Below, piece after piece: positions 1,217-63,872 of a DNA stretch of 64,000 nucleotides. Source of the DNA: an uncultured Psychroserpens sp. (lineage in GTDB: Bacteria; Bacteroidota; Bacteroidia; Flavobacteriales; Flavobacteriaceae). The notes beneath the pieces are model-generated. The model saw only the letters and a list, made by a program, of their open reading frames with translations. It did not search any database and was not told where the DNA came from. The translations under genes were made by a program, and so were the position numbers. Location: assembly GCA_947488655.1 (NCBI GenBank), contig CANKZZ010000002.1, positions 62,001 to 126,000 of the forward strand, given 5' to 3'. Numbering within the stretch: the first letter of the stretch is position 1; each line of letters starts with the position of its first letter.

Positions 1217-2773
1217 TTGAATTTTTCTCAAAAAGATATACAACAAATAGAAAATAAGGGCTTAACAGTAAGTGATGTTGAGCAGCAAATACGACTTTTT
1301 GAAAACGGATTGCCTTTTGCTAATCTGGTTTCTGAAGCAACCATAAATAATGGAATACTTAGATTATCAAAAACTGAAATAGAACGTTATATCTCAAAAT
1401 TTGACGATAAAAAAAATGATAAATCTATTTTAAAATTTGTTCCTGCATCTGGTGCTGCAACAAGGATGTTCAAATTTTTATTTACATTTTTAGACGAATA
1501 TAATATTGAGAAAGGAAGTATTAACTCTTATATCAATAAAACAAAAAATAAAGATTTATCAATCTTTTTTATAGGTTTAGAAAAGTTCCCCTTTTATCAT
1601 ATTGTGGTTAATAGACTAAAAGATACTTATCCAGATTTTGAAGAGAGCTCAATTAATGAGCAAGGTCTTAGATTTGTGCAAATGATGCTAGATAGCAATA
1701 AGCTAGATTATGGTAATTCTCCAAAAGGATTATTACCTTTTCATCAATATAAAGAACAAAAGATTTCTACAGCTTTTGAAGAGCATTTATACGAATCTGC
1801 ATTGTACTCATCTAGTAAGAAATCTGCTAAATTGCATTTTACAATTTCTGAAAAACATAAACATAAGTTTGACGAAGAGTTTGCAAGAATTGAAAAAAAA
1901 GTAGAAGAAATAACAAAATCAAAATTTGATATTTCATTCTCGTATCAAAAAGAATCTACAGATACTATTGCAGTTACCTCAAAAAATAAGCCTTTTAGAG
2001 AAGATGATAGCTCACTTCACTTTAGACCATCTGGTCATGGTGCATTAATAGAAAATTTAAACGACTTAGATGCCGATGTTATCTTTATAAAAAATATAGA
2101 TAATGTGGTTACTTATAAATACAAAGAAGAAGTTGCTAAGTATAAAAAAGTATTAGCAGGTATTTTATTAGAGGTTCAAGAAAAAGCTTTCAATTATCTT
2201 ACAATTCTAGAAAATGGCGAGGTTTCCGAAGAAAAAAGTATTGAAATAGGTGAGTTTTTAGTCAATAGATTAAATGTAAAAATTAACGCAGAGTTTGAGA
2301 AATACTCACGTAAATATCAAATTGAGTATTTAGCAGAAAAGTTAAATCGTCCAATTCGTGTTTGCGGTATGGTAAAAAACGAAGGAGAACCTGGAGGAGG
2401 TCCCTTTTGGATTAAAGATGAAAGTGGGAACATCTCGTTGCAAATCATTGAGTCTGCACAAATAAATAAAAAGAGTAAAATTCAAAAAGAAATTCTAAAA
2501 GGAGCCACACATTTTAATCCGGTAGATTTAGTTTGTGGTATTAAAAATCATAAAGGCGAAAAATACGATTTAAAAAAGTTTATAGATCATAAAGCTGCTT
2601 TTATAACCATGAAAACAAAAACAGGTAAAGATTTAAAAGCACTTGAGCTTCCTGGTTTATGGAACGGGAGTATGGCAAACTGGAACACAATTTTTGTTGA
2701 GGTGCCTTTAATTACTTTTAACCCGGTAAAAACAGTAAATGATTTACTTAAAGCACCACATCAAATTAAGTAA
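1217..2773 (+). CDS. DUF4301 family protein
   Basis: This 518-residue cytosolic protein matches DUF4301, a family largely confined to Bacteroidota. The conserved PASGAATRM motif is at residues 76-84. The motif recalls nucleotide-sugar or nucleotidyltransferase-like phosphate binding, but the function is unknown. It starts at a TTG codon five bases after the kinase gene stops; no ATG nearby would keep the conserved N-terminus. The position in the pnuC-kinase operon suggests a role connected to vitamin or nucleotide salvage, which is inference. Confidence 0.8.
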   Translation: MNFSQKDIQQIENKGLTVSDVEQQIRLFENGLPFANLVSEATINNGILRLSKTEIERYISKFDDKKNDKSILKFVPASGAATRMFKFLFTFLDEYNIEKGSINSYINKTKNKDLSIFFIGLEKFPFYHIVVNRLKDTYPDFEESSINEQGLRFVQMMLDSNKLDYGNSPKGLLPFHQYKEQKISTAFEEHLYESALYSSSKKSAKLHFTISEKHKHKFDEEFARIEKKVEEITKSKFDISFSYQKESTDTIAVTSKNKPFREDDSSLHFRPSGHGALIENLNDLDADVIFIKNIDNVVTYKYKEEVAKYKKVLAGILLEVQEKAFNYLTILENGEVSEEKSIEIGEFLVNRLNVKINAEFEKYSRKYQIEYLAEKLNRPIRVCGMVKNEGEPGGGPFWIKDESGNISLQIIESAQINKKSKIQKEILKGATHFNPVDLVCGIKNHKGEKYDLKKFIDHKAAFITMKTKTGKDLKALELPGLWNGSMANWNTIFVEVPLITFNPVKTVNDLLKAPHQIK

Positions 2774-2774
2774 A

Positions 2775-3182
2775 ATGTTTGATGAGGCTGCCATATTAAA
2801 TGAGTTAGAATTTAAATTTGTAAGAAGCTCTGGTGCAGGAGGACAGCATGTTAATAAAACCTCTTCTAAGGTAGAACTTACCTTTAATTTGGAAGCATCA
2901 CAATTTTTAAGTGAAGCTCAAAAAGAATTATTAAAGAGCAATCTACAAACAAGGCTTACAAAAGATAACGTACTTATTTTACAATGTGGTGAGAGTAGGA
3001 GCCAACATAAAAATAAGTCTCTAATTATTAAGCGATTTTTAGAATTAATTGAAGCTAATTTAATTGAAGAGAAAGATCGTATACCCACAAAAATACCAAG
3101 AGCTGTAGTTAGAAAACGTCTATCTAACAAACGTAAAAATTCAGAAAAAAAATCTAACAGAAAACCTCCACCAATAGATTAA
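2775..3182 (+). CDS. arfB: Alternative ribosome-rescue factor ArfB (peptidyl-tRNA hydrolase)
   Basis: The 135-residue protein has the class I release-factor signature GAGGQHVNKTS, with the catalytic GGQ at residues 22-24, and a short lysine/arginine-rich tail (KRLSNKRKN...) of the kind ArfB inserts into the empty mRNA channel of stalled ribosomes. It lacks the codon-recognition domains of RF1/RF2, and the length is normal for ArfB (YaeJ). I chose the ATG at 2775, one base after the DUF4301 stop, because the open frame upstream lies inside DUF4301 and would add a non-conserved leader. Confidence 0.9.
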   Translation: MFDEAAILNELEFKFVRSSGAGGQHVNKTSSKVELTFNLEASQFLSEAQKELLKSNLQTRLTKDNVLILQCGESRSQHKNKSLIIKRFLELIEANLIEEKDRIPTKIPRAVVRKRLSNKRKNSEKKSNRKPPPID

Positions 3183-3227
3183 TTAAAATATTTAATGTTT
3201 AATAATGCTCAAATGATAAATGTATTT

Positions 3228-3235
3228 TATCTTTG
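3228..3235 (+). promoter_or_regulatory. -7 promoter box (TATCTTTG) of the riboswitch transcript
   Basis: TATCTTTG fits the Bacteroidota -7 consensus TAnnTTTG and lies 15 bases before the first conserved riboswitch bases, so transcription would begin just ahead of the aptamer. No clear TTG -33 box is visible. Confidence 0.5.
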
Positions 3236-3249
3236 CAGCGTTCTCAAAA

Positions 3250-3316
3250 AAGGGGTGCCTATTTTCGGCTGAGATCATACCCATTGAACCTAGAACAGGT
3301 AATGCTGTTTAGGAAT
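3250..3316 (+). ncRNA. TPP riboswitch (THI element)
   Basis: The conserved aptamer blocks appear in order: GGGGTGCC (3252-3259), GGCTGAGA (3267-3274), ACCC then TTGAACCT (3279-3291), and CAGGTAATGCTG (3296-3307) followed by AGG. They form the classic two-armed thiamine-pyrophosphate aptamer. It sits in the 5' leader of the TonB receptor gene, leaving about 130 bases for the expression platform. Binding of TPP is expected to lower expression of the receptor. Confidence 0.95.
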
Positions 3317-3320
3317 TTTG

Positions 3321-3445
3321 AATACTAATTACCAAATACTTTGTGGTTATACCAACACAGTAATTTGCTAATTAGTATTTGTAAACTAATTATTAACTAT
3401 TAAGAATAATTACCTCTTTTTATTCGATTATAAATTCATAATCGT
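3321..3445 (+). promoter_or_regulatory. Probable expression platform of the TPP riboswitch
   Basis: Two inverted repeats fill the leader between aptamer and start codon. AATACTAATTA (3321-3331) pairs with TAATTAGTATT (3369-3379). CGATTAT (3425-3431) pairs with ATAATCG (3438-3444), ending one base before the ATG at 3446. No T-tract terminator follows, so control of translation initiation through the start-proximal hairpin seems more likely than termination. This is inference from base complementarity. Confidence 0.45.
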
Positions 3446-5635
3446 ATGAAACACAATTTTCTTTTTATAGTACTACTGGTACTATCGTTTAATGCATTTG
3501 CACAAGATAACACAAAACAACAAGATTCTACTAAAACAGAAAAACTAGACGAAGTTTTAGTTAAAGCAGTTAGAGTAGAGGCAACGTCTCCAATTACACA
3601 CTCTAATGTCACCAAAAAGCAATTGGCAAAACGAAATTTAGGACAAGATATTCCTGTTTTATTAAACTATTTACCATCGGTTGTGACAACTACAGATGCT
3701 GGAGCTGGTGTTGGTTACACAGGTATTCGTGTTCGTGGTATTAATGCACAATCTACCAATGTGACTATTAACGGTATTCCTTATAACGATGCCGAATCTT
3801 TAGGGACTTTTTGGGTTAATTTAGGTGACTTCGCATCATCTGTAGAAAGTTTACAATTACAACGTGGTGTTGGTACATCTACAAATGGTTCTGGTGCTTT
3901 TGGAGCCAGTATCAACGTGTTAACAGATGCGGTTTCAAAAGAGTCTAATGGAGAAATTTCTAACTACTTTGGTAGCTACAATACACGTAAACATACTGTA
4001 AAATTTAGTACAGGTTTATTAAATGAACATATTGAAATTGCAGGTCGTTTATCAAATATATCTTCAGATGGTTATATAGATAGAGCACGTACAGATCTAA
4101 AATCGTACTTTTTACAAGGGTCTTATGTAGATGATAACACGTTAATAAAAGCTATAACTTTTGGCGGACAAGAAGTGACCTATCAAGCCTGGAATGGTAT
4201 TGATGCAGACCAATTAATTGAGGATAGAACATTTAATCCATCTGGTATGTATACAGATGCAGATGGCAACACACGTTTTTATGATAACGAAGTTGATAAC
4301 TACAATCAAGATCATTATCAATTGCATTGGAATCAAAAATATAATAACAGATGGTCAACTAACTTGGGTTTAAATTATACCTACGGAAGAGGTTATTTTG
4401 AGCAATATAAGGAAGACGAGGATTTTGCAGATTACGATTTAACACCAATCACTATTGGAGGAGAAACTGTTGAAACCACAGATTTAATTAGACGTCGTTG
4501 GTTAGACAATGATTTCTATGTATTAAATGCCAGCGCAAATTATAAAAATAATGAGGTTGATGTGCTCTTCGGAAGTTCATACAGCTTCTACGATGGAGAC
4601 CATTTTGGTGAAATTATATGGTCTGAATTTGCCAGTGATAGTGAAATTAGAGATCGTTATTATGAAGGAAACGGAAAGAAAACAGATTTAAGTTTTTTCA
4701 CGAAAGCAACATATAGATTAAATGACAAAGTAAGTTTATATGGCGATTTACAATTGCGTACAGTTGGATATGAAACTTCTGGATTAAACTCAGATAGACT
4801 ACCGTTTAACGTAGATGAAAATTACACATTTTTTAATCCTAAAGCAGGAATAACTTATACTCTAAACACTAATAACAGTTTGTATTTCTCATATGCGAGA
4901 GCAAATAGAGAGCCAAATCGTAGCGATTTTGAGAACAATGCAACTGTAAAACCAGAGCAACTTAACGACTTTGAATTAGGATGGAGACACAACACTCAAA
5001 AATTTAGATTAAATGTAAATGGCTATTACATGTTGTATAACGAACAGTTAGTTTTAACAGGTCAAATTGATACTACAGGAGATCCAATTAGAGCAAATAA
5101 TGGAGACAGTTATCGTTTAGGTTTGGAGGTTGATGCAGCAGTTGCGCTAACAGATAAATTCTCTATACAACCTAATTTTACATTAAGTTCTAATAAAAAT
5201 AGAGAAACGTTTGAGTCTGTCAACGGAGTCCTTTTAGATTTAGGTAAAACAGATATTTCTTTTTCTCCAGAAATTGTCGCAGCCAATGCCTTTGTCTTTC
5301 AACCAAAAGAAGGATTTCAAATATCATTACTAAGCAAATTTGTTGGCGAGCAATTTATGGGAAATACCGAAAATCCAGATTCTAAATTAGACAGTTATTT
5401 CGTTAATGATTTTAATATTACTTACGAATGGAAACCAAAATCGATATTTAAATCTATTGTGTTTTCAGGATTAGTAAATAATATTTTTAACGAAAAATAT
5501 TTATCTAACGGTTACTTTGGTTCATTTGATTTTTCTGATGATACTAGCCCAACAGGCACAACAACAGGATATTTTGCAGGATTTTACCCTCAAGCAACGA
5601 CTAACTTTTTATTAGGTGCTACTTTGAAGTTTTAG
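3446..5635 (+). CDS. TonB-dependent outer-membrane receptor, probably for thiamine
   Basis: The 729-residue protein has a signal peptide (residues 1-20, cleavage after FNAFAQ), a plug domain with the usual IRVRGINAQ and GVGTSTNGSGAFG signatures, and a long beta-barrel ending in the aromatic terminus TLKF. TonB receptors use proton-motive force via TonB-ExbBD to import scarce ligands across the outer membrane. The TPP riboswitch in its leader argues strongly for thiamine or a thiamine precursor as ligand. There is no N-terminal carboxypeptidase-like domain, and the gene is monocistronic, closed by a terminator. Confidence 0.9.
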   Translation: MKHNFLFIVLLVLSFNAFAQDNTKQQDSTKTEKLDEVLVKAVRVEATSPITHSNVTKKQLAKRNLGQDIPVLLNYLPSVVTTTDAGAGVGYTGIRVRGINAQSTNVTINGIPYNDAESLGTFWVNLGDFASSVESLQLQRGVGTSTNGSGAFGASINVLTDAVSKESNGEISNYFGSYNTRKHTVKFSTGLLNEHIEIAGRLSNISSDGYIDRARTDLKSYFLQGSYVDDNTLIKAITFGGQEVTYQAWNGIDADQLIEDRTFNPSGMYTDADGNTRFYDNEVDNYNQDHYQLHWNQKYNNRWSTNLGLNYTYGRGYFEQYKEDEDFADYDLTPITIGGETVETTDLIRRRWLDNDFYVLNASANYKNNEVDVLFGSSYSFYDGDHFGEIIWSEFASDSEIRDRYYEGNGKKTDLSFFTKATYRLNDKVSLYGDLQLRTVGYETSGLNSDRLPFNVDENYTFFNPKAGITYTLNTNNSLYFSYARANREPNRSDFENNATVKPEQLNDFELGWRHNTQKFRLNVNGYYMLYNEQLVLTGQIDTTGDPIRANNGDSYRLGLEVDAAVALTDKFSIQPNFTLSSNKNRETFESVNGVLLDLGKTDISFSPEIVAANAFVFQPKEGFQISLLSKFVGEQFMGNTENPDSKLDSYFVNDFNITYEWKPKSIFKSIVFSGLVNNIFNEKYLSNGYFGSFDFSDDTSPTGTTTGYFAGFYPQATTNFLLGATLKF

Positions 5636-5718: not shown

Positions 5719-5740
5719 GAGTTACATTTCCGAAGTAATT

Positions 5741-7673: not shown

Positions 7674-8879
7674 TTAAGCGATTAATTTCAATGAAATTTG
7701 CATGGTTGTTCCTTTTCCAATTTCCGAAGAAAGTACTTTTATTTTTCCGTTATGGTAATCTTCTATAATACGTTTTGCTAAAGATAATCCTAATCCCCAA
7801 CCTCTCTTTTTTGTGGTATATCCAGGTTGAAATACCGAGTTAAAGCTTTGTTTAGAAATTCCTTTTCCGGTATCTTCTACGGTAATTTTTACATATTTAT
7901 CGTCATTGGTAATGACAAGTTTTAAGTGACCTCTACCTTTCATTGCGTCAATAGCATTCTTCACTAAATTTTCAATAGTCCAGCTAAACAGTTGTTTATT
8001 TAGGTTTACATATAGTGTTTTGTCTGGCACTAAAATTTCAAACTCAATTAATTTAGATGATCGCGCTTTTAAATACTCATAAGATTCTACAGTTTCTTGC
8101 ACAATATCACATCGCTTTAATGTTGGTAAAGAGCCAATTTTGCTAAAACGATCTGTAATGGTTTGTAGTCTTGTAATGTCTTTTTCAATTTCAATTAAAT
8201 AGTCTGGGTTGACGTTTTCGCTTCTTAAAATTTCTGTCCATCCTACTAGAGACGATAATGGTGTGCCAATTTGATGCGCAGTTTCTTTTGCCATACCTGT
8301 CCACAATTTGTTTTGATCTGCGGTTTTTGCACTTTTATAAAAAAAGTAGGCTACAGCAGCAAAAAGTATGATTATTAATAATAAGGTTAAAGGGTAATAT
8401 TTTAATTTGTTGAGTAGTGGCGAGTTTCCGTAGTAAAGAATTTTATCATAACCTTCAATCTTAATAGGCTCGTTTTCTTGACTGTATTTTATAATTAATG
8501 TTTTATGATTGTTAGCTACATTTATAGAATCTTTTTTTAGCTGTAATACATTGTTTTCTACATTACCACTAATATTTCTATAAATAACAACTGTAGAATC
8601 CAACTCTGTTAGAATCATTGGAGTTGTGTTATTATTGTCTAAAATCTCGAACGCTAAATCTAATTCGCCAAAGATATCATCGCTTTGGTTCTTTTCAGAT
8701 TCTGCAATTGCTCTTTGCAGGTCACGTTGGGCAGATGACCATATTTGCATTTTACTGCGCTCCTCTGCCTTAAAATTTTGAAAAAATACGTACGTATTCC
8801 ATAATATAAGAGAGATGATAATAAAGGAAGCCACAATGATAATCCATCGTGTCATATTACGGTTTATGGTTAATGCCAT
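7674..8879 (-). CDS. Membrane sensor histidine kinase without an adjacent response regulator
   Basis: This 401-residue kinase has a transmembrane helix at residues 11-32, a periplasmic sensor region of about 130 residues, a second helix at 164-182, then the H-box AHQIGTPLSSL with the phospho-accepting His202. An HATPase_c domain follows with the N box ENLVKNAIDA, G1 box DTGKGI and G2 box GWGLGLSLAK. The H-box form AHQIGTPL is a flavobacterial variant of HE(I/L)(R/K)TPL. No HAMP domain and no response regulator gene lie nearby, so its partner is encoded elsewhere. It also contains one TTCTTCGGAA motif near its 3' end. Confidence 0.9.
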   Translation of the reverse strand: MALTINRNMTRWIIIVASFIIISLILWNTYVFFQNFKAEERSKMQIWSSAQRDLQRAIAESEKNQSDDIFGELDLAFEILDNNNTTPMILTELDSTVVIYRNISGNVENNVLQLKKDSINVANNHKTLIIKYSQENEPIKIEGYDKILYYGNSPLLNKLKYYPLTLLLIIILFAAVAYFFYKSAKTADQNKLWTGMAKETAHQIGTPLSSLVGWTEILRSENVNPDYLIEIEKDITRLQTITDRFSKIGSLPTLKRCDIVQETVESYEYLKARSSKLIEFEILVPDKTLYVNLNKQLFSWTIENLVKNAIDAMKGRGHLKLVITNDDKYVKITVEDTGKGISKQSFNSVFQPGYTTKKRGWGLGLSLAKRIIEDYHNGKIKVLSSEIGKGTTMQISLKLIA

Positions 8880-9028: not shown

Positions 9029-9898
9029 ATGGCATCATTTAATCCAAAAGACATTTCTACTGGCAAGTTACATGGTTACTTATTAAGTGCTGTAGCTCCT
9101 AGACCAATAGCTTTTGCAAGTACAATAGATGCTAATGGAAATCCTAATTTATCGCCTTTTAGTTTTTTTAATGTGTTTAGTGCTAATCCGCCAATTATGA
9201 TTTTTTCTCCTGCGCGTCGTGTAAGAGATAATACAACAAAGCATACATTAGAAAATGTTGAGCTTACAAAAGAAGTCGTAATTAATGTGGTTAATTATGA
9301 CATTGTACACCAAATGTCTTTGAGTAGTACAGAGTATGCTCAAGGCGTAAACGAGTTTGAAAAAACTGGGTTAACAATGCTTTCTTCGGAAATTGTAAAA
9401 CCTTTTAGAGTTGCAGAGTCTCCAGTTCAATTTGAATGTAAAGTAAATGAGATTGTACATTTAGGTACCGAAGGTGGAGCAGGAAACCTAGTTATATGCG
9501 AAGTCGTTAAACTTCATATTGCAGATGAGGTTTTAGACGAAAATGATGTTATTGACCAAAATAAATTAGACTTGGTGGCAAGAGCAGGTGGAAGTTATTA
9601 CAGTAGAGCTAATAGAGGCTTTTTTGAAATCCCAAAACCTTTATCAACCTTAGGGATTGGTGTAGATAATATGCCTGCCGAAGTTAAAAACAGTATGATT
9701 TTAACGGGTAACGATTTAGGAATGTTAGGTAATGTTGAGGTATTACCAAGTAAGATAGATATTGATAAGTTTTTAAACGACATAAGTGAGAATTACCCAA
9801 ATATTAAGGAGATGTCTCATAGAGAAAAACATAAAATTGCCAGAAACTATTTGAGTTTTGGTGATGTAGATAGTGCATGGAAAATGTTGCTATCATAA
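9029..9898 (+). CDS. Flavin reductase-like FMN-binding split-barrel protein
   Basis: The 289-residue protein has the N-terminal signature of flavin reductase-like proteins: APRPIAFASTID, then NLSPFSFFNVFSANPPI, which form the FMN-binding split barrel. Relatives reduce flavins with NAD(P)H for partner monooxygenases or act as stand-alone flavoproteins. The C-terminal 90 residues extend beyond the barrel, as is usual in the Bacteroidota branch. The partner oxygenase is not visible here, so the physiological substrate remains unknown. The gene is followed closely by the DUF3127 gene on the same strand. Confidence 0.85.
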   Translation: MASFNPKDISTGKLHGYLLSAVAPRPIAFASTIDANGNPNLSPFSFFNVFSANPPIMIFSPARRVRDNTTKHTLENVELTKEVVINVVNYDIVHQMSLSSTEYAQGVNEFEKTGLTMLSSEIVKPFRVAESPVQFECKVNEIVHLGTEGGAGNLVICEVVKLHIADEVLDENDVIDQNKLDLVARAGGSYYSRANRGFFEIPKPLSTLGIGVDNMPAEVKNSMILTGNDLGMLGNVEVLPSKIDIDKFLNDISENYPNIKEMSHREKHKIARNYLSFGDVDSAWKMLLS

Positions 9899-9936: not shown

Positions 9937-10308
9937 ATGGAAGTACAAGGAAAAATCAAGATGATTGGAGAAACTCAAACTTTTGGAAGTAACGGGTTTA
10001 GAAAGAGAGAATTAGTAGTAACTACAGAGGAGCAATACCCACAACATATTTTAGTAGAATTTGTTCAAGATAAAACAGATTTATTAAATAGCTACCAAGT
10101 TGGTCAGGCTGTTAAAGTAAATATCAATTTAAGAGGAAGAGAATGGGTTAACCCTCAAGGAGAAACTAAATATTTTAACTCTGTACAAGGATGGAGAATT
10201 GAAGCTGCTCAACCAGCTGGTAACAATGCACCACCTGTAGCTCCAACAGAGGCTTTTGAGCCAGCAACAAATTTAAACGAAGAAGATCATGACGATTTAC
10301 CGTTTTAA
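9937..10308 (+). CDS. DUF3127 protein with an SSB-like C-terminal tip
   Basis: This 123-residue protein is a DUF3127 member, predicted to have an OB-like beta-barrel in residues 1-90 (MEVQGKIKMIGETQTFG..., LRGREWVNPQGE). A flexible proline/alanine-rich linker then ends in the acidic tip EEDHDDLPF. The last residues closely resemble the DDDIPF tip by which single-stranded DNA-binding protein recruits RecQ, RecO, PriA, PolIII chi and others. A nucleic-acid-binding role is therefore plausible but unproven. It lies 38 bases after the flavin reductase gene and is closed by a terminator. Confidence 0.85.
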   Translation: MEVQGKIKMIGETQTFGSNGFRKRELVVTTEEQYPQHILVEFVQDKTDLLNSYQVGQAVKVNINLRGREWVNPQGETKYFNSVQGWRIEAAQPAGNNAPPVAPTEAFEPATNLNEEDHDDLPF

Positions 10309-11612: not shown

Positions 11613-11759
11613 ACTAATACTATTATTTACTTACTGTTTTTAAAAATAGTAAGTTTTTAGTTAATGCTTCGTCTTAGAGAATAATATAAACAAGCAATTT
11701 TTATGATTAATATCATTTTCTTCGGAAATGAAAATACTTAAATTGCAACCTGCAATACT

Positions 11760-13778: not shown

Positions 13779-14474
13779 TTATTCCGAAGAAAGAGAACTT
13801 ATAAAATCTTCTGGAGAAACAGCATTATTAACATCGAACTCACCAATTTTTGTGCGCCTAAGTACAGATAGATGGGCTCCAGAGTTCAAGGCTTTCCCAA
13901 AATCGTGAGCTAAAGAACGTATGTAAGTCCCTTTACTGCACACGACTCGAAATTCTACATTTAAACCCTCAATTTTAGTGATTTCAAATGCCGAAATGCT
14001 CACTTTTCTAGATTTGATCTCAACATCTTCTCCAGCACGAGCGTACTCATACAATCGTTTTCCGTCTTTTTTTAATGCCGAAAATACTGGTGGAAATTGA
14101 TCAATTTCTCCAATAAACTGTTGCGTGGCATTATGTATATTTTCTTCGGAAATATGCTCGGTTGGAAATCTTTGGTCTATTTCAGATTCTAAATCATAAG
14201 AAGGTGTTGTACTACCCAAAACGAAAGTGCCTGTGTATTCTTTATCCTGACCTTGAAACGTATTGATTTGTTTGGTCATTTTACCTGTGCAGATAATTAA
14301 TAGACCTGTTGCTAGAGGATCAAGCGTACCTGCATGACCAACTTTAATTTTTTTGATGTTAAAGGCTTGCCTTATTTCCCAGCGTAATTTATTGACAGCC
14401 TGAAATGATGTCCACGTTAAGGGTTTATCTATAAGTAAAACTTGACCAGCTTGAAAATCTTCGGCAGTTATCAT
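13779..14474 (-). CDS. truB: tRNA pseudouridine(55) synthase TruB
   Basis: This 231-residue protein has the TruB catalytic motif GHAGTLDPLATG, with catalytic Asp52, and the N-terminal LIDKPLTWTSFQAV segment. It isomerises U55 to pseudouridine in the T loop of almost all tRNAs. The length fits short TruB forms without a PUA extension. It starts one base after the uppP stop, a tight coupling typical of Bacteroidota. Two TTCTTCGGAA motifs lie inside it, one forming its last codons (SLSSE). Confidence 0.95.
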   Translation of the reverse strand: MITAEDFQAGQVLLIDKPLTWTSFQAVNKLRWEIRQAFNIKKIKVGHAGTLDPLATGLLIICTGKMTKQINTFQGQDKEYTGTFVLGSTTPSYDLESEIDQRFPTEHISEENIHNATQQFIGEIDQFPPVFSALKKDGKRLYEYARAGEDVEIKSRKVSISAFEITKIEGLNVEFRVVCSKGTYIRSLAHDFGKALNSGAHLSVLRRTKIGEFDVNNAVSPEDFISSLSSE

Positions 14475-14475: not shown

Positions 14476-15273
14476 TTATTTATTTAGTAGCGCAAAAGTA
14501 ATTGCAATGATGCCTACAATCACACAGTAGATTGCAAAGTAAGATAGTTTACTCTTTTTAACTAAAGCAATCATCCAGGTGCAAGCAAATAATCCTGCAA
14601 CAAATGCAGCAATAAAACCAATACCTAAACTTGTAAAATTAGCACTATCATATGTTATTTCTCCACCTAAAATGTCTTTGGCGATTTTTCCGAAGATAAG
14701 AGGCACAACCATTAAAAATGAAAAACGAGCAGCTTTAGTTTTATCGTTACCTAACAGTACAGATGTAGATATTGTAGCTCCAGAGCGAGAAATACCTGGG
14801 AGCATTGCAATTGCTTGAGAAACACCAATGATAAATGCATTAGAGAAGGTCACTTTTTTATTGGTGTCTTTTGCTCTGTCTGCTAAAAATAGAAGTGCAG
14901 CAGTAACTAAAAGCATACAACCAACAAGTAGTATATTACCACCAAATAATTGCTCTAATTGTTCTTCAAAAAAGAGCCCAACAATAACAGCAGGAATCAT
15001 AGATAATGCAATTTTAGAAACAAATTGTAAATCATCGTTCCATTCAAATTTTAGAACACCTTTAAGAAGGTCTAAAATATCTTTTCTAAATACTACGATT
15101 GTGCTTAATGCAGTTGCAAAATGTAAAACAACGGTAAATAATAAACTTTCCTTTGGTAGAGAATCATCGCCTAATATGGCTTTTCCTAATTCTAAATGAC
15201 CACTAGATGATACTGGTAAAAACTCAGTAAGACCTTGTATAATTCCTAATATAATTGAATCGATGATATCCAT
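14476..15273 (-). CDS. uppP: Undecaprenyl-diphosphatase
   Basis: The 265-residue integral membrane protein has the UppP (BacA) signatures QGLTEFLPVSSSGH (residues 13-26) and PGISRSGATI near residue 155. It dephosphorylates undecaprenyl diphosphate to recycle the lipid carrier for peptidoglycan and other cell-wall polymers, and its overexpression gives bacitracin resistance. Seven to eight transmembrane helices are visible. It is embedded between DUF3098 and truB in the ftsX operon. Confidence 0.95.
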   Translation of the reverse strand: MDIIDSIILGIIQGLTEFLPVSSSGHLELGKAILGDDSLPKESLLFTVVLHFATALSTIVVFRKDILDLLKGVLKFEWNDDLQFVSKIALSMIPAVIVGLFFEEQLEQLFGGNILLVGCMLLVTAALLFLADRAKDTNKKVTFSNAFIIGVSQAIAMLPGISRSGATISTSVLLGNDKTKAARFSFLMVVPLIFGKIAKDILGGEITYDSANFTSLGIGFIAAFVAGLFACTWMIALVKKSKLSYFAIYCVIVGIIAITFALLNK

Positions 15274-15340: not shown

Positions 15341-15610
15341 TTAAGATTTGGTTTTAGACGCTTTATTTGGATTCAATAATATCGCATATACTTGTATGCC
15401 AAAGCCAAGTAATACAAGTGTTGGTGCTAATCTAATACGTGTCCAGCTAAAAATTGATGGGTCAAATACGTTAGGGTCGTCACTGCCACCACCAGACATT
15501 AAAATAAAACCAAGTACAATTGATGCTAAACCAATAAGCATAAATTTGTAATTCTTTTTTCCGAAGATAAATTCGTTTTTTGATGCGTTTTTACGTTTTT
15601 GTTCTCCCAT
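15341..15610 (-). CDS. DUF3098 small membrane protein
   Basis: The 89-residue protein has two transmembrane helices (about residues 23-40 and 62-80) separated by a loop with GGGSDDPNVFDPSIFSWTR, typical of DUF3098. The family is found in Bacteroidota next to ftsX and uppP, which hints at a role in cell division or envelope synthesis; its function is not known. Start ATG is unambiguous and follows the upstream lipoprotein gene by nine bases. Confidence 0.85.
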   Translation of the reverse strand: MGEQKRKNASKNEFIFGKKNYKFMLIGLASIVLGFILMSGGGSDDPNVFDPSIFSWTRIRLAPTLVLLGFGIQVYAILLNPNKASKTKS

Positions 15611-42214: not shown

Positions 42215-42227
42215 AGCTGCAAAAATA

Positions 42228-52730: not shown

Positions 52731-53426
52731 TCATTCAATCTTTTGGAGAGTAATTGGTAGTAAGCGCTCTACAAATTTTGTATATGCTAACTCAGATGGA
52801 TGTAAACCATCTATAGCTACTAAGTTTGGGTGTTCTAAACCTTGACGTGTAATGTCTGTAATATTTAAAAAAGTTATGTCTTCTTGTTGACAATAGCTCT
52901 CTATAAAGTCATTATACATATTAATCTCTTCGGAAGTTGTCTCAGGATTTCCATTATTTTGACCAAAAGTTGTAAAAGCATAATCAGGTATAGAAAGCAC
53001 TATTAAATTGCTTTTATCTCCTCCAATGGCATTAATAGCCATTTGTAATAGTTGAGGAAATTCAGCTTCAAAAACTAAAAAATCTATATTTTGATATTGA
53101 TTATTAACACCTATTAAAAGCGTTGCTAAGTCGTAGTCGGTTTGTAATGATTGGTCTTCTAAAGTATTAATTAAGTTTGTTGTAGTCCAGCCAGTTTGTG
53201 CAATTACATTTATATTAATTGTCTTGTTAATACTATCGTTTAAGGCGCTTTTTAATTGTTCTGGAAATCTACATGTATCGCATACACTTTGTCCTATAGT
53301 ATAACTATCTCCTAAATTTAAAATTTTAATAGGATCATCAAAAGAGGTTATTACATTGTCGTCATTTACACTGCACGATAAAAATGATATTATTTGTATT
53401 AAGAGAAAAATAATTGTTTTATTCAT
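52731..53426 (-). CDS. SGNH/GDSL-type lipoprotein hydrolase
   Basis: The 231-residue lipoprotein has signal MNKTIIFLLIQIISFLSC, lipidated at Cys18, and SGNH blocks: LGDSYTIGQSV with the nucleophile serine, LLIGVNNQYQ, and DGLHPSELAY with the catalytic Asp-His near the C-terminus. It should remove acetyl or acyl groups from sugars or lipids at the outside surface. The natural substrate is unknown. Confidence 0.85.
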   Translation of the reverse strand: MNKTIIFLLIQIISFLSCSVNDDNVITSFDDPIKILNLGDSYTIGQSVCDTCRFPEQLKSALNDSINKTININVIAQTGWTTTNLINTLEDQSLQTDYDLATLLIGVNNQYQNIDFLVFEAEFPQLLQMAINAIGGDKSNLIVLSIPDYAFTTFGQNNGNPETTSEEINMYNDFIESYCQQEDITFLNITDITRQGLEHPNLVAIDGLHPSELAYTKFVERLLPITLQKIE

Positions 53427-54739: not shown

Positions 54740-55453
54740 TTACATTTTCAAATAAAATGCTTTTGTTAGATTTATATAGTCATCGGTATATTTATGACGT
54801 TCGGTTTCTATAATTAATTGAGTAGTTTCAATTTTTGTTTCAGTAAATGAAAACTCTAATAAACTCCTCTTTATGTTTGACGTAATGGTGCCTTTAACTC
54901 TTGTTTTTTTCTTCGGAAATAGGCCAACTCGTAAAGCTAATTCTATAAAACGTATTTCTTCATTAAATGGGATTATTACCGTAAATATTCCATTTTCAGA
55001 AAGTAAAGCTACTACACTTTCTAACAAATGCTCAAAGGGCATTGCATCTTGAAATCTTGCTAAATCTCGCTGTGTATTCTCGGTTTTATAGTCTTCAGAA
55101 TAAAAAGGTGGATTGCAAATGATTAAATCATATTTATCATCAATTTCATCTGCAAACTCATCAAGAGAAGCGTGATAGCAAAACAAGCGATCATTCCATA
55201 TAGATTGTTCAAAATTTTCTACACATTGCTCATAAGCATTATCGTCTATTTCTAATGCTTCAATTATTTGTGCATTGCTTCGTTGTGCCAACATTAAAGC
55301 TAAAATACCAGTGCCTGCTCCAATATCTAAAATAGAATGTGGATTGGTGGTTATAGAGGTCCAGGCTCCTAACAAAACTGCATCTGTGCCAATTTTCATT
55401 GCACATTGATCTTGATGTATTGAGAAGTTTTTAAATTGAAAAGGTTTATGCAT
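54740..55453 (-). CDS. trmN6: tRNA1(Val) adenine-37 N6-methyltransferase
   Basis: The 237-residue enzyme has the SAM motif LDIGAGTGILALML near residue 42, ALEIDDNAYEQC, and the N6-adenine methyltransferase motif NPPF followed by YSEDYKTEN. It methylates A37 of tRNA1-Val. The N-terminal FKNFSIHQDQCAMKIGTDAVLLGAW is the signature of this branch. It lies six bases after rimM, consistent with a shared transcript. Confidence 0.9.
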   Translation of the reverse strand: MHKPFQFKNFSIHQDQCAMKIGTDAVLLGAWTSITTNPHSILDIGAGTGILALMLAQRSNAQIIEALEIDDNAYEQCVENFEQSIWNDRLFCYHASLDEFADEIDDKYDLIICNPPFYSEDYKTENTQRDLARFQDAMPFEHLLESVVALLSENGIFTVIIPFNEEIRFIELALRVGLFPKKKTRVKGTITSNIKRSLLEFSFTETKIETTQLIIETERHKYTDDYINLTKAFYLKM

Positions 55454-58359: not shown

Positions 58360-61300
58360 ATGTATTTAATCTTTGATACCGAAACGACCGGATTACCAAA
58401 ACGTTGGGATGCTCCAATTACAGATGTCGATAATTGGCCTAGATGTATACAAATAGCATGGCAATTACATGATGAAATGGGTAATTGCATTGATCATCAA
58501 GATTATTTGGTGAAACCAGATGGATTTAATATACCATATGACGCTGAAAAAATTCATGGTATTTCTACTGAGTTAGCTCAAGAGCAAGGTGTTTCTTTAC
58601 AAGAGGTCTTGTCAAAATTTAATAGCGCACTTTCAAAAACCAAATTTGTCGTTGGACAAAATGTAAAATTCGATCTCAATATTATGGGAGCAGAGTTTGT
58701 TAGAGAGGGTGTTAACAATCAACTTCAAGAATTACCAGTATTAGATACTTGTACTGAGCATACTGCATCACTATGTCAAATTCCTGGTGGTCGCTACGGA
58801 AAGTTTAAACTACCAACTTTAACAGAATTACATCAATTTTTATTTAATAAACCATTTGCAGAAGCGCATAATGCGACAGCAGATGTAGAAGCAACAACAA
58901 GATGTTTTTTTGAACTCATACGCTTAGGAGAGTATACTAAAGAGCAATTGGATGTTGAGCCAGATTATTTTAAAAATTTTAACGAGAAGAATCCGCAAAC
59001 GATTCAACTCATTGGTTTAAAACATATAAATCTTAAAAAGGAAAGCGCAAAAATAAATGAGCGCCTCCAAAAATTGCAATCAGTTGATATTTCCGAAGAG
59101 GAAATAAAAGAAAACATTGCAGATTTAAAAGATGTTGATTTTGTACACTTACATAATCATTCTCAGTTTTCGGTTTTACAATCAACTATAAGCATTACAG
59201 ATTTGGTTGCTGTAGCTGCCGAACATAAAATGCCTGCTGTGGCATTAACAGATCATGCTAATATGATGGGAGCTTTTCATTTTGTAAAAGCTGTAAATAA
59301 TCACAATAAAGGTGTAAAAGCTAAAATTGAAGAAGCTCAAGAAAAAGGAGAAACTTTAGATTTAAAAGAAATCAAACCAATTTTAGGTTGTGAGTTTTTT
59401 GTTTGTGAGGATCATACTAATAAATCTAGAAAAGATAACGGATATCAAATTGTATTAATTGCAAAGAATAAAAACGGTTATCACAACTTGGCTAAATTAT
59501 CATCCCATGCCTTTGTAGATGGCTTTTATTATTTGCCAAGAATTGACAAAAAATTAATTCAGCAATATAAAGAAGACTTAATTTGTCTCACAGGTAATCT
59601 CTATGGAGAGGTCCCAAGTAAAGTTTTAAATGTTGGAGAAAACCAAGCAGAAGAGGCCTTATTATGGTGGAAACAAGAATTTGGTGATGACTTGTATATA
59701 GAATTAATGCGTCATAATCAAGAGGATGAAAATCGTGTTAACCCTGTATTAATTGAGTTTTCTAAAAAACACGATATCAAATTAATTGCCTCTAATAATA
59801 CTTACTATTGTAAAAAAGAAGATGCAAATGCACATGATATTTTATTGTGTGTAAAAGATGGTGAAAAGCAGGCTACTCCAATAGGTCGCGGTAGAGGTTA
59901 TCGTTATGGGATGCCAAATAAGGAGTATTATTTTAAGTCGTCTGATGAGATGAAATCCTTATTTAAGGATGTGCCAGATGCCATATCAAATATTCAAGAG
60001 GTAGTTGATAAGGTAGAAGCATTTCAATTAGCTAGAGATGTATTATTGCCTGCATTTGATATTCCAGATGAGTTTAAAGATGCTGCAGACTTAGCAGATG
60101 GTGGTAAGCGTGGTGAAAATGCATTTTTAAAACACATAACCTTTGAAGGTGCCAAAAAAAGGTATGGAGAAAACTTAAGTGATGAGGTGATTGAGCGCCT
60201 AGACTTTGAGTTAAGCGTTATTGAAAACACAGGTTATCCTGGTTACTTTTTAATTGTTGAAGACTTTATTAGAGAGGCTCGTAATATGGATGTTTCTGTA
60301 GGTCCTGGTCGTGGGTCTGCAGCAGGATCTGTAGTAGCTTATTGTCTTTGGATTACAAACATCGATCCACTCAAGTACGATTTGCTTTTTGAGCGTTTCC
60401 TAAATCCAGATCGTGTTAGTATGCCAGATATTGATATCGATTTTGATGATGAAGGTCGTAGTCGTGTCATGGATTACGTAATAAATAAATACGGTTCTAA
60501 TCAAGTAGCTCAAATTATAACTTACGGTACGATGGCAGCAAAGTCGTCTATTAGAGATACAGCAAGGGTACTTGATTTGCCTTTGTTTGAAGCAGATCGT
60601 ATTGCTAAGTTAATTCCAACCATGTCAAAATTGAATAAGATTTTTGGCCTATCGGAAAAAGAACTTGGTAATAAATTTAGGGCAGAAGATTTAGAAAAAG
60701 TCAACGAACTTTTAAATATCGCAGATGGTGAAGGTCTAGATGCTGAAACTGTAAATCTGGCAAGGTCACTTGAAGGTTCTGTTCGTAATACAGGAATACA
60801 TGCGTGTGGTGTAATTATTACACCAGATGATATAACCAAATTCGTTCCTGTTGCTTTAGCTAAGGATTCCGATTTATATGTCACTCAGTTTGATAACTCA
60901 GTGGTTGAAGATGCAGGTTTGCTTAAAATGGATTTTTTAGGATTAAAAACCTTAACCCTAATTAAAGATACCGTTAAAATTGTAAAAGCAAAACATGATA
61001 TTCTTTTAGATCCAGATACGTTTCCTTTAGATGACGAAAAAACATATGAACTCTTCCAAAAAGGTGAAACTGTTGGTGTGTTTCAATATGAATCTCCAGG
61101 AATGCAAAAGCACCTTAAAGAATTAAAACCTACGGTTTTTGAAGATTTAATTGCAATGAATGCTTTATATCGTCCAGGTCCAATGGAATATATACCAAGT
61201 TTTACAAGACGTAAACATGGTGATGAAGATATTGAGTACGATTTACCAGCAATGGAAGAATATCTCAAAGAAACCTATGGGATTACAGTCTACCAAGAGC

Positions 61301-62748
61301 AAGTAATGCTCTTGTCTCAAAAATTGGCAGATTTTACCAAAGGTGAAGCCGATGTTTTGAGAAAGGCAATGGGTAAAAAGCAAATTGCAGTTTTAGATAA
61401 AATGAAACCAAAATTTATTGAGCAAGCAAGTGCCAAAGGTCATGACGCCAAAATATTAGAAAAGGTTTGGAAAGATTGGGAAGCCTTTGCAAGTTATGCC
61501 TTCAACAAATCGCACTCAACATGTTATGCTTGGATTGCTTACCAAACTGCGTATTTAAAAGCACATTATCCTGCAGAGTATATGGCAGCAGTATTGTCTA
61601 ATAATATGAATGACATCAAGCAAGTAACATTTTTTATGGAAGAATGTAAACGAATGCGAATGGATGTTTTAGGTCCAGATGTTAATGAGTCTTATTATAA
61701 GTTTTCAGTAAATCAAGATGGTGCAGTACGCTTTGGGATGGGAGCCATTAAAGGTGTTGGTCATGGTGCTGTAAAAACTATTGTTGCCAACCGAAAAGAA
61801 AAAGGTCACTACAAATCTATTTTTGATTTAGCAAAGCGTATAGATTTACGTGCAGCCAATAAAAAAGCATTTGAAAATTTAGCGCTCGCAGGCGGTTTTG
61901 ATGGATTTGGTGATACGCATCGTGCACAATATTTTCAAGATGAAGGAGACGGAATAACGTTTTTAGAAAAAGCAATAAAATATGGCGCAAAACATCAAGA
62001 AAACGAAAATTCTGCTCAAGTAAGTTTGTTTGGAGCTGCTAGCGATGTTCAAATAGAAGAGCCAGTTGTTCCTCCTGCCGAAGAATGGGGAACTATGAAA
62101 AAACTAGCTCAAGAAAAAGAGGTAGTAGGTGTTTATATCTCTGGTCATCCTCTAGATGATTTTAAAGTAGAGATGAAAACATTTTGCAGTGGTAATTTGG
62201 CATTTTTTAATGAAATGGAAAATTATGTTAACCGTGAAATTACATTTGGAGGTGTAGTTACAGATGTGCAACATCGTGTGAGTAAACAAGGTAAAGGTTG
62301 GGCGATTTTTATGGTTGAGGATTATACAGATAATTATGAGTTTAGAATTTTTGGAGAAGAATACCTTAAATACAGGCATTTTTTAGTTAAAAACAGTTTC
62401 GTATATATAAAATCGTTTGTAAGAGAGGGCTGGACAAATAGAGAAACTGGTAAAAAAAGTGATCCAAGACTTCAGTTTAATAGTTTTCAACTATTGCATG
62501 ACGTTATGGATACTTATGCAAAAAAACTATCCATCCAATTAAATATTAAGGATTTAGAAGAAGAAAAAATTTCAGTATTACAGGATTTATTCAGATTACA
62601 TCATGGTGAGAAAGCACTAACGTTTGTTGTTTATGATAATGCCGAAAAGATAAAACTCAATATGCCAAGCCGAAAACAGAAAATTAAAATCTCCCAAGAA
62701 CTATTAAACGAATTAGAAACTAATGATGTAATGTACAAACTAAATTAA
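58360..62748 (+). CDS. dnaE: DNA polymerase III alpha subunit with fused proofreading exonuclease
   Basis: The 1462-residue protein starts with a DnaQ-type DEDDh exonuclease domain (residues 1-190): FDTETTG, NVKFDLN and HNATADVEATT give the metal-binding acidic residues. The PHP domain follows (HLHNHSQFSV, LTDHANMMGAFHF), then the Pol III palm with PDIDIDFDDEGRS, the fingers (RNTGIHACGVII), helix-hairpin-helix and OB-fold regions. The fusion provides replication and proofreading in one chain and makes the protein longer than the E. coli 1160-residue DnaE. The arrangement is typical for Flavobacteriia. One CTTCGGAA variant lies inside it. Confidence 0.97.
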   Translation: MYLIFDTETTGLPKRWDAPITDVDNWPRCIQIAWQLHDEMGNCIDHQDYLVKPDGFNIPYDAEKIHGISTELAQEQGVSLQEVLSKFNSALSKTKFVVGQNVKFDLNIMGAEFVREGVNNQLQELPVLDTCTEHTASLCQIPGGRYGKFKLPTLTELHQFLFNKPFAEAHNATADVEATTRCFFELIRLGEYTKEQLDVEPDYFKNFNEKNPQTIQLIGLKHINLKKESAKINERLQKLQSVDISEEEIKENIADLKDVDFVHLHNHSQFSVLQSTISITDLVAVAAEHKMPAVALTDHANMMGAFHFVKAVNNHNKGVKAKIEEAQEKGETLDLKEIKPILGCEFFVCEDHTNKSRKDNGYQIVLIAKNKNGYHNLAKLSSHAFVDGFYYLPRIDKKLIQQYKEDLICLTGNLYGEVPSKVLNVGENQAEEALLWWKQEFGDDLYIELMRHNQEDENRVNPVLIEFSKKHDIKLIASNNTYYCKKEDANAHDILLCVKDGEKQATPIGRGRGYRYGMPNKEYYFKSSDEMKSLFKDVPDAISNIQEVVDKVEAFQLARDVLLPAFDIPDEFKDAADLADGGKRGENAFLKHITFEGAKKRYGENLSDEVIERLDFELSVIENTGYPGYFLIVEDFIREARNMDVSVGPGRGSAAGSVVAYCLWITNIDPLKYDLLFERFLNPDRVSMPDIDIDFDDEGRSRVMDYVINKYGSNQVAQIITYGTMAAKSSIRDTARVLDLPLFEADRIAKLIPTMSKLNKIFGLSEKELGNKFRAEDLEKVNELLNIADGEGLDAETVNLARSLEGSVRNTGIHACGVIITPDDITKFVPVALAKDSDLYVTQFDNSVVEDAGLLKMDFLGLKTLTLIKDTVKIVKAKHDILLDPDTFPLDDEKTYELFQKGETVGVFQYESPGMQKHLKELKPTVFEDLIAMNALYRPGPMEYIPSFTRRKHGDEDIEYDLPAMEEYLKETYGITVYQEQVMLLSQKLADFTKGEADVLRKAMGKKQIAVLDKMKPKFIEQASAKGHDAKILEKVWKDWEAFASYAFNKSHSTCYAWIAYQTAYLKAHYPAEYMAAVLSNNMNDIKQVTFFMEECKRMRMDVLGPDVNESYYKFSVNQDGAVRFGMGAIKGVGHGAVKTIVANRKEKGHYKSIFDLAKRIDLRAANKKAFENLALAGGFDGFGDTHRAQYFQDEGDGITFLEKAIKYGAKHQENENSAQVSLFGAASDVQIEEPVVPPAEEWGTMKKLAQEKEVVGVYISGHPLDDFKVEMKTFCSGNLAFFNEMENYVNREITFGGVVTDVQHRVSKQGKGWAIFMVEDYTDNYEFRIFGEEYLKYRHFLVKNSFVYIKSFVREGWTNRETGKKSDPRLQFNSFQLLHDVMDTYAKKLSIQLNIKDLEEEKISVLQDLFRLHHGEKALTFVVYDNAEKIKLNMPSRKQKIKISQELLNELETNDVMYKLN

Positions 62749-62845
62749 GACTAACGTATATAAAAATTTAAACTATATACAATCAATCAATAACCTCATA
62801 ATCAAAACAAATACTGCCTGTGTAAGGTTTGGTAAAAATTTTGAC

Positions 62846-62853
62846 TAATTTTG
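62846..62853 (+). promoter_or_regulatory. -7 promoter box for trxA
   Basis: TAATTTTG fits TAnnTTTG and lies 41 bases before the trxA start. Confidence 0.45.
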
Positions 62854-62893
62854 TGTAAATTAAAATGAAGTTAAACAATTAGAATATATAATT

Positions 62894-63211
62894 ATGGCAT
62901 TAGAAATAACAGATGCAAATTTCGAGGAAGTAGTACTAAAAAGTGATAAGCCAGTAATGGTAGATTTCTGGGCTGCTTGGTGTGGACCATGTAGAATGGT
63001 TGGGCCAATCATTGATGAAATCAGTACAGAGTACGATGGTAAAGCAGTTGTAGGTAAAGTAGATGTTGATGCAAATCAAGAATTCGCAGCAAAATACGGT
63101 GTTAGAAACATTCCTACGGTTTTAGTGTTTCAAAATGGAGAAGTTGTAGGTCGTCAAGTAGGTGTAGCACCTAAAAACGCTTATTCTGAAGCAATCGACG
63201 CTTTATTATAA
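62894..63211 (+). CDS. trxA: Thioredoxin
   Basis: The 105-residue protein has the classic active site WCGPC (Cys30, Cys33) in FWAAWCGPCRMVGPI, followed by VDVDANQEFAAKYGVRNIPT, the cis-proline region. It reduces disulfides in cytosolic proteins, ribonucleotide reductase among them. Terminator follows. Confidence 0.97.
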   Translation: MALEITDANFEEVVLKSDKPVMVDFWAAWCGPCRMVGPIIDEISTEYDGKAVVGKVDVDANQEFAAKYGVRNIPTVLVFQNGEVVGRQVGVAPKNAYSEAIDALL

Positions 63212-63234
63212 AATATAATTCATAAAGAATTGAT

Positions 63235-63268
63235 AAAAGGTTTGCCAGTATGGCAAACCTTTTTTTAT
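63235..63268 (+). terminator. Intrinsic terminator after trxA
   Basis: AAAAGGTTTGCCA (63235-63247) pairs with TGGCAAACCTTTT (63251-63263), then more T residues. Confidence 0.85.
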
Positions 63269-63302
63269 TTTTAACTAATATTAAGATATAAGATATATAA
63301 AC

Positions 63303-63845
63303 ATGAGTAAGCAAGCAAAAACGCAAGACTTAATTGATAGTAAATTATTAGAAGAGCGCAAAGTATTTCTTTGGGGTATGGTAGATGATAAATCGGCAAA
63401 ACACGTTATAGATCGTCTATTGTATTTAGACTCTCTAGAAACAAAAGATATTCATCTATACATAAATAGTCCTGGAGGTTATGTAACATCGGGATTTGCA
63501 ATGTATGACTGCATCAAATCATTAAACAGTGATGTGTCAACCATATGCACAGGATTAGCTGCATCAATGGGATCAATATTGTTGTCTGTAGGTACAAAAG
63601 GAAAACGTTTCATACAACCGCACGCTAGAGTTATGATACATCAACCAAGTGGAGGTGCTCGTGGTCAAGCAAGTGATATAGAAATTACAGCACAAGAAAT
63701 TTTAAAAACAAAAGAGCTTAGTGCTAAAATATTGGCAGATAATTGCGGGCAAGATTTTGATAAAGTCATGAAAGATTTTAATCGTGATCACTGGATGGGA
63801 GCAGAAGAATCTAAAGCCTACGGAATCGTCGACGATATAATCTAA
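63303..63845 (+). CDS. clpP: ClpP-type serine protease
   Basis: The 180-residue protein has Ser88 in LAASMGSILL, His113 in MIHQPSGG and a DFNRDHWMGAEE segment that supplies the aspartate, matching the ClpP catalytic triad. The length is short, without a visible propeptide, and the N-terminal half (INSPGGYVTSGFAMYD) is standard. It could be a second ClpP paralogue beside a classical one elsewhere in the genome, which is not seen here. A DUF58 gene follows, with a TTCTTCGGAA motif between them. Confidence 0.9.
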   Translation: MSKQAKTQDLIDSKLLEERKVFLWGMVDDKSAKHVIDRLLYLDSLETKDIHLYINSPGGYVTSGFAMYDCIKSLNSDVSTICTGLAASMGSILLSVGTKGKRFIQPHARVMIHQPSGGARGQASDIEITAQEILKTKELSAKILADNCGQDFDKVMKDFNRDHWMGAEESKAYGIVDDII

Positions 63846-63872
63846 TTTTTTTCTTCGGAAATTTTAAAACCC

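Follow-up and report, generated by a model that had tools for sequence, protein, structure and literature searches.

A 64-kb stretch of DNA from an uncultured Psychroserpens sp. of the family Flavobacteriaceae (assembly GCA_947488655.1, contig CANKZZ010000002.1, positions 62,001 to 126,000; hereafter the window) carries many copies of a short word, TTCTTCGGAA, built on the octamer core CTTCGGAA, and this over-represented word is kept by selection at the DNA level rather than at the protein level. In its full form, TTTTCT[T>A/G]CGGAAAT, it is probably a DNA-uptake-type self-recognition signal of Flavobacteriaceae, a reading drawn from sequence comparison; we describe it as a word that works like an uptake sequence, short of calling it a DNA uptake sequence (DUS).

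The window, with a G+C content of 32.4%, holds 17 TTCTTCGGAA decamers, nine on the plus strand and eight on the minus strand, and 27 CTTCGGAA octamers with both strands counted, so that ten more copies share the core. An original prediction, made by reading this DNA alone, had given all 17 decamer positions and their strand split exactly, had estimated the core-only copies at about ten and the G+C content at about 33%, and had placed four copies between genes; four decamers (11718, 22143, 30501 and 63851) indeed lie outside open reading frames (ORFs) of at least 100 aa. Its composition-based expectation, well under one decamer and about one octamer, agrees with 100 dinucleotide-preserving shuffles of the window, in which the decamer averaged 0.12 copies (largest 1) and the octamer 1.07 (largest 4). 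The motif ranks first among the octamers and decamers of the window under an order-2 Markov model, and its over-representation is real by shuffling, by Markov ranking and by genome-wide count alike.

Among named records, the LeuS encoded in the window comes nearest to those of Psychroserpens, Olleya and Lacinutrix, at up to 88% identity. Genome-wide, the source genome (G000; Psychroserpens, 3.6 Mb in 20 contigs) contains 603 TTCTTCGGAA copies, 318 and 285 by strand, against 12 reversed-word controls (5 and 7). A 464-kb sample of it, consisting of the window and 20 further stretches (L081-L100), holds 173 CTTCGGAA octamers, that is one per 2.7 kb or 0.37 per kb. The Markov comparison that had been proposed, run on this sample, gave an expectation of 3.4 with an order-2 model and of 32.4 with an order-4 model that had already absorbed the motif. 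In the congener G006, 245 octamers were counted in 400 kb against 6.3 expected. The motif was refined to a T-rich flank followed by CT[T/A/G]CGGAA and an A: around CTDCGGAA sites, T occupies position -3 in 81% and A directly follows the core in 69%. The third core base is the loosest, accepting A or G, most clearly in G006 (CTGCGGAA, 80 vs 5.2 expected; CTACGGAA, 62 vs 5.7), and the other core positions are near-strict. Tolerance at several core positions, read from a single-mismatch spectrum, was discarded, as many such words are common anyway and only the third base is loose. Copies are spaced nearly at random.

Selection on the DNA itself, as originally proposed, is shown by the synonymous-shuffle excess together with ortholog conservation beyond the peptide. 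Genes in the 464-kb sample were called with our own hexamer-based script (375 genes, 89% coding); 143 of the 173 copies fall within them, 78 in the coding sense and 65 against it, and 30 lie between genes. When synonymous codons were shuffled within genes (30 shuffles), a mean of 7.3 and a maximum of 14 copies remained, compared with the 143 observed. Two control words stayed at expectation under this procedure (AAGGCTTC, 11 vs 9.6; TTCCTGAA, 28 vs 27.7), and a third, CATCTGTA, chosen as itself over-represented, stood twofold above the shuffle (77 vs 36).

The window was then set against the syntenic regions of eight of 22 congeners, three of which carry the DUF5689 version of the locus at 42283-44034, described below, and five of which do not; genes with less than 60% protein identity or 70% coverage were dropped. 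In G006, a relative at 81% identity, 20 of 22 copies remain intact, as opposed to a fraction of 0.206 for any octamer (binomial tail 3e-12, with copies treated as independent), and in the motif-rich G009 (by inference P. damuponensis) 11 of 17 are intact (tail 2e-4). Where the encoded peptide is equal, 16 of 16 copies are intact in G006 and 9 of 11 in G009, against 0.291 and 0.317 for other octamers. Gain occurs too, since 13 of 33 aligned G006 copies are absent from the window. The five motif-poor congeners retain 1/11 (G002), 4/15 (G001), 4/13 (G012), 5/10 (G007) and 3/13 (G020, by inference P. jangbogonensis), 17 of 62 when pooled, and in these species conservation exceeds background weakly or not at all (tails from 0.016 to 0.86); across the eight comparisons, any octamer is intact in 0.14-0.22. 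The original prediction had named loss of copies in close relatives as the point to check, and the outcome was divided: copies were kept in G006 and G009, partly lost in G005 (by inference P. algicola; 7 of 20 intact) and mostly lost in the five motif-poor species. The 27 copies in the window, with the relatives in which they are intact, are as follows.

2224-2233, minus strand: TTCTTCGGAA copy in ORF 1217-2773; intact in G006
4567-4574, plus strand: CTTCGGAA core only, in TonB-receptor ORF 3446-5635; intact in G006, not in G005
5728-5735, minus strand: CTTCGGAA core only, between ORFs
7722-7731, minus strand: TTCTTCGGAA copy in ORF 7674-8879; intact in G006 and G009
9382-9391, plus strand: TTCTTCGGAA copy in ORF 9029-9898; intact in G006 and G009
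11718-11727, plus strand: TTCTTCGGAA copy between ORFs
13782-13791, minus strand: TTCTTCGGAA copy at the 3' end of ORF 13779-14474; intact in all five relatives aligned there
14142-14151, plus strand: TTCTTCGGAA copy in ORF 13779-14474; intact in five of eight relatives
14688-14695, minus strand: CTTCGGAA core only, in ORF 14476-15273
15559-15566, minus strand: CTTCGGAA core only, in called gene 15341-15610
18216-18225, plus strand: TTCTTCGGAA, first of three copies in leuS (ORF 17725-20577); intact in G006 and G009
18273-18282, plus strand: TTCTTCGGAA, second of three copies in leuS; intact in G006 and G009
18297-18306, plus strand: TTCTTCGGAA, third of three copies in leuS; intact in G006, G005, G001 and G020
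20691-20698, plus strand: CTTCGGAA core only, in called gene 20639-20938
22143-22152, minus strand: TTCTTCGGAA copy between ORFs
30501-30510, minus strand: TTCTTCGGAA copy between ORFs
39651-39660, plus strand: TTCTTCGGAA copy in tyrosyl-type tRNA synthetase ORF 39271-40623; intact in G006 and G009
41164-41173, minus strand: TTCTTCGGAA copy in YHS-domain ORF 40754-41203; lost in G006, as is one other site
41704-41711, plus strand: CTTCGGAA core only, in LuxE-like ORF 41234-42253
42176-42185, minus strand: TTCTTCGGAA copy in LuxE-like ORF 41234-42253
47334-47343, minus strand: TTCTTCGGAA copy in methyltransferase ORF 47132-47806; intact in G006 and G009
48498-48505, plus strand: CTTCGGAA core only, in ORF 48439-48768
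49783-49790, plus strand: CTTCGGAA core only, in Mrp/NUBPL-type ATPase ORF 48908-50044
52928-52935, plus strand: CTTCGGAA core only, in ORF 52731-53426
54909-54918, plus strand: TTCTTCGGAA copy in ORF 54740-55453; lost in G006, intact in G005
59091-59098, minus strand: CTTCGGAA core only, in ORF 58360-62748
63851-63860, plus strand: TTCTTCGGAA copy just 3' of ORF 63303-63845

These figures bear directly on the idea that the word is a by-product of codon use or of peptide repeats such as SSE, SEE and FFG. A few peptides do recur at the sites, but copies also lie between ORFs and are read in various frames within them, and neither the 143 copies against 7.3 after synonymous shuffling nor the 16 of 16 intact at equal peptides against 0.291 is what such a by-product would give; we regard its probability as negligible.

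Beyond the source genome, all 22 congeners exceed their own control (53-970 copies vs 15-39), the smallest ratio being that of G014 (53 vs 32), so that copy number varies about 18-fold within the genus. When a genome is counted as enriched if it has 100 or more decamers and these number no fewer than three times the reversed control, 40 of 397 sampled genomes of the family (G000 included) are enriched, in 25 of 237 genera, and most others lie near the control; in 23 genomes from other families of the order, 0-68 copies were counted. In samples of 40-60 kb from nine enriched genomes of other genera, CTTCGGAA is the top octamer in three (G285, G122 and G322), ranks 4 and 9 in G107 and G242, and is low or unranked in G298, G144, G300 and G345. 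Inspected stretches of G285 and G322 show varying flanks around the individual copies, which identifies a word rather than a dispersed repeat. No clear second word, or dialect, was found at 40 kb each in ten genomes, nine of which were taken for having a relative of the DUF5689 protein of the window or of its front half and one, G029, as motif-rich. A candidate dialect of G144, CTGCGGAA, was rejected because 12 of its 19 copies belong to one tandem repeat, an array at L285 13936-16551 made of 12 copies of a 237-base unit, every one containing CTGCGGAA.

The distribution of copies along the chromosome bears on the main rival of the uptake-type reading, a Chi-like recombination or repair signal at which an AddAB/RecBCD-type nuclease would stop and load RecA, the word being kept in core DNA. 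The word resembles Chi in its octamer core, in its similar spacing (0.37 per kb, near the density in E. coli), in being kept in core genes and in its apparent thinning around one conjugative element; E. coli Chi occurs once per 5 kb and is thinned in recently acquired genes (PMC8022716, excerpt). In the same excerpt, E. coli Chi lies almost only on the leading strand, and this polarity is used as a search criterion. The word differs from Chi in showing no strand polarity. The strand-skew check that had been suggested placed 119 copies on the leading strand and 126 on the lagging strand of G006, a genome of one contig whose replichores were assigned from the GC skew of sampled stretches, and copies in G000 have no link with GC skew (42+42 in positive, 10+15 in negative and 34+30 in flat stretches). 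This lack of polarity argues against Chi, which we consider unlikely.

Density in G006 is even, with a mean of 12.25 and a variance of 15.4 over 20 stretches of 20 kb. Such evenness, and the presence of copies in genes and between them on both strands, would also suit a site for a chromosome-organising or nucleoid protein, evenly spread for packaging or segregation. Unlike segregation or terminus sites, however, the copies form no gradient or cluster in the 20 evenly spaced G006 stretches, and the 18-fold variation within one genus would be odd for a housekeeping function, which leaves this explanation quite unlikely. The nucleoid or segregation site and the repair-related site, which the original prediction had offered beside an uptake-type signal, are thus less well supported than the latter, the best fit of its three examples given the absence of polarity, the even density, the apparent depletion in one mobile element and the competence genes.

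That depletion was seen in a single element. One G006 stretch (L149) stood out with 2 copies, and after its neighbours had been added, the region at 3.40-3.49 Mb of contig C1 was found to hold 11 copies in 90 kb, compared with about 55 expected at the sample mean, its limits having been set after the counts were known. With any third base allowed the count is 20, and the preceding 40 kb contain 15 copies. Among 27 proteins scanned in the region are TraG and type IV coupling protein (T4CP) ATPases, TraM, DUF4138, RteC, ParB and metal-efflux proteins, by which predicted content the region is an integrative conjugative element with neighbouring cargo. Across L298, L149, L299, L300 and L301 it carries metal-efflux cargo, a multicopper oxidase and a beta-lactamase-fold gene. 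In a second motif-poor stretch of G006, L145 (5 copies), the three proteins scanned were from ordinary genes.

Two further explanations concern the word itself. Restriction is expected to deplete its own target, and a DNA methyltransferase or restriction target enriched in this way is very unlikely here: depletion rather than enrichment would be expected and the strict word is not palindromic, even though a short fixed word on DNA that is patchy across genera is the form such a target would take. Highly iterated words in cyanobacteria, which have been linked to methyltransferases, provide a precedent (PMC4390886, excerpt). The word could also be read as an RNA hairpin, TTTC-TTCG-GAAA, closing on a cUUCGg tetraloop, as its CTTCGG core and the A or G allowed at the third base would agree with the free position of UNCG, and pairing exceeds shuffles at -1/6 (z 4.8) and -2/7 (z 3.1). 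Such an excess would, however, arise from true sites mixed with chance ones. At 186 selected sites of G000, 57 combine a non-T with A and none combines T with a non-A, and at 281 sites of G006 the numbers are 96 and 5; position 7 thus stays A whatever its partner, so that the base is kept and not the pair. The orientations relative to transcription are, moreover, about equal (78 and 65), and the hairpin is extremely improbable.

The non-polar, DNA-level and family-wide conservation of the word, its loss in some lineages and its apparent scarcity in one acquired element are what uptake bias produces. Under the preferred reading of an uptake-type signal, a surface DNA receptor of a Riemerella-type machine would prefer fragments bearing the word; the machine would comprise a DUF5689 lipoprotein and a TonB-receptor-like outer-membrane barrel, followed by ComEC, DprA and RecA. 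Fragments from kin would then enter and recombine more frequently than foreign DNA, a bias that could raise and maintain the word, as has been proposed for Haemophilus and Neisseria.

Components of such a machine are predicted in the host. ComEC was found in 52 of 57 genomes searched and DprA in nine of nine tested, both including G000, with a partial DprA match in G075. At C1:465-469 kb, G000 encodes a lipoprotein with DUF5689 and choice-of-anchor-J domains, neighboured by a 958-residue outer-membrane-type protein with CarboxypepD_reg and a weak Plug match, and beside this pair lies a predicted exonuclease/endonuclease. In domain content the pair matches RA0C_RS04920/RA0C_RS04915 of Riemerella, which are essential for transformation of R. 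anatipestifer and for which Psychroserpens homologues are listed (PMC8459023, excerpt). R. columbina is reported to prefer its own DNA, though with no known signal (PMC7965970, excerpt); Riemerella differs in having no established uptake word, the published k-mer list being raw, A/T-rich counts (PMC7965970, Table 3).

Among known signals, the Neisseriaceae DUS, read by the minor pilin ComP, is similar in being a non-palindromic word of 10-12 bases with hundreds to thousands of copies, one word across many species of a family with variation from genome to genome (PMC3630211, excerpt). It differs in its word, its higher density, the dialects of which none was clearly found here, and the phylum, which here is Bacteroidota, and its uptake effect is established, whereas the present word is known from genome comparison. 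No match over the cut-off to PF00437, the pilus/secretion ATPase family, was obtained in seven of eight genomes, including G000, G006, G285 and G322. A ComP-type pilin on a standard pilus is therefore an unlikely reader of the word in G000, no search having been aimed at ComP itself. The uptake signal sequence (USS) of Pasteurellaceae has a strict core of about nine bases with an A/T-rich flank. The word shares this form and the presence on both strands with the USS of Haemophilus influenzae, and differs in core, in uptake machinery and in belonging to an unrelated phylum. Pasteurellaceae uptake motifs also lean to gene ends (PMC2346458, excerpt), whereas no significant position bias within genes was found here (chi-square 12.0, 9 degrees of freedom).

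A candidate for the reader was sought in the window, which encodes type IX secretion sorting domains.

42283-44034, minus strand: type IX secreted protein with DUF5689 and a sorting tail, from domain scans and synteny

This product consists of a front domain, an immunoglobulin-like region, DUF5689 and the type IX sorting tail, in conserved synteny. Motif copies number 146-970 in the eight genomes of the genus that have two DUF5689 matches and 53-220 in the fifteen that have one; this association of the second gene with motif number is significant with kinship uncontrolled (Mann-Whitney, one-sided p = 2e-5). In five motif-poor congeners of the eight examined, the locus holds a type IX protein of about 700 residues that shares just the sorting tail. 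On a leuS tree that is poorly resolved, the DUF5689 label is clustered, with 3 changes (0 of 500 shuffles as low), so that kinship alone may explain the association. Relatives of the protein also occur in genera without the motif (G031, G114, G337 and others). As the genus-level association fails family-wide, the protein was set aside as the receptor and is a lead only. A front-domain association (16/40 vs 37/357, p = 7e-6) was not used, being post hoc, uncorrected for kinship and a mixture of unlike architectures; the family-wide 2 x 2 tables were counted by hand. An AlphaFold model of the DUF5689 domain from a single sequence was likewise not used (mean predicted local distance difference test score, pLDDT, 32.8), and sequence searches against solved structures returned sorting-domain matches or nothing convincing.

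Across the window and G001, G002, G005, G006, G007, G009, G012 and G020, this locus encodes a surface protein with exchangeable front modules, named by eye: one front with DUF5689, a lamin-tail-like front with DUF5689 (G006), and the roughly 700-residue form that lacks DUF5689. The sorting tail is similar in all of them. Genus g50 offers a pair of genomes: G075, lacking any DUF5689 match, has a partial DprA and 13 copies, and G300, with three DUF5689 matches, has 178 copies; the pair is suggestive of a link between DUF5689 and the motif, as one case.

Several observations weigh against an uptake function. The 603 decamers in 3.6 Mb are sparser than the DUS of Neisseria, of which N. meningitidis has about 1,900 (PMC3630211, excerpt), and depletion in mobile DNA is expected of Chi too. 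The word is not the top octamer in six of the nine sampled enriched genomes of other genera, and G144 has 3 copies against 1.9 expected in 40 kb. P. algicola (G005) possesses the DUF5689 version, yet has 146 copies and the low retention given above. Most relatives, whether enriched or not, have ComEC, DprA and DUF5689, which therefore do not explain which genomes carry the motif: DUF5689 is present in 38 of 40 enriched and 319 of 357 other genomes (p = 0.40), and a second DUF5689 gene in 14 of 40 and 86 of 357 (p = 0.18). G345, with 155 copies and 99% completeness, is not among the listed genomes with a DUF5689 match. The motif-rich G009 has a pilus/secretion ATPase (C19:26142-27251, E = 3.7e-125), the sole one of the eight genomes to do so, and no report of uptake or transformation in Psychroserpens turned up in the open PubMed Central literature.

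To our knowledge, the uptake words established by experiment are those of Neisseriaceae and Pasteurellaceae, two families that rely on type IV pili, and no such word is reported in Bacteroidota in the open PubMed Central literature as far as surveyed. Uptake-type words are known as a kind; the novelty here, within that literature, lies in the word itself, in its phylum and in the apparent lack of a pilus motor in G000. A bolder and more tentative extension, possible rather than probable, is that sequence-selective uptake in Flavobacteriaceae is independent of type IV pili, with a Bacteroidota-specific DUF5689/TonB-like machine, perhaps together with type IX DUF5689 proteins, reading CTTCGGAA as a label shared by marine flavobacteria that exchange genes. 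One near-invariant word in at least 25 genera would, if this is true, point to a common exchange tag rather than a species barrier. If the word works in uptake, it would allow self-recognition to be tested directly in a machine that lacks the usual pilus, help in finding the receptor and serve as a practical tag for work on marine flavobacteria.

Other words were also noted. In the 464-kb sample of G000, CTCCCCAA/TTGGGGAG is over-represented (30 copies vs 2.8 expected with an order-2 model and 6.8 with an order-4 model). In L045, from an uncultured Dokdonia sp. (NZ_CANMDS010000002.1), eleven places in 23 kb carry CGCTTTCGCGAAAGCG or a near variant (e.g. 1592-1603, 5195-5206, 9968-9979 and 14456-14467), and seven of these fall between ORFs of 120 aa or more; it is the top-scoring word among 80 LeuS loci and resembles a paired terminator-type repeat. 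Finally, the related words CTCGATAC, TATCGAGA, TCACTCGA and ATCGAGAA are over-represented in L002 (Olleya), L010 (Mangrovimonas), L035 (Flaviramulus), L049 (Wocania) and L080 (Hyunsoonleella), and perhaps represent an intergenic palindromic repeat common to several genera.

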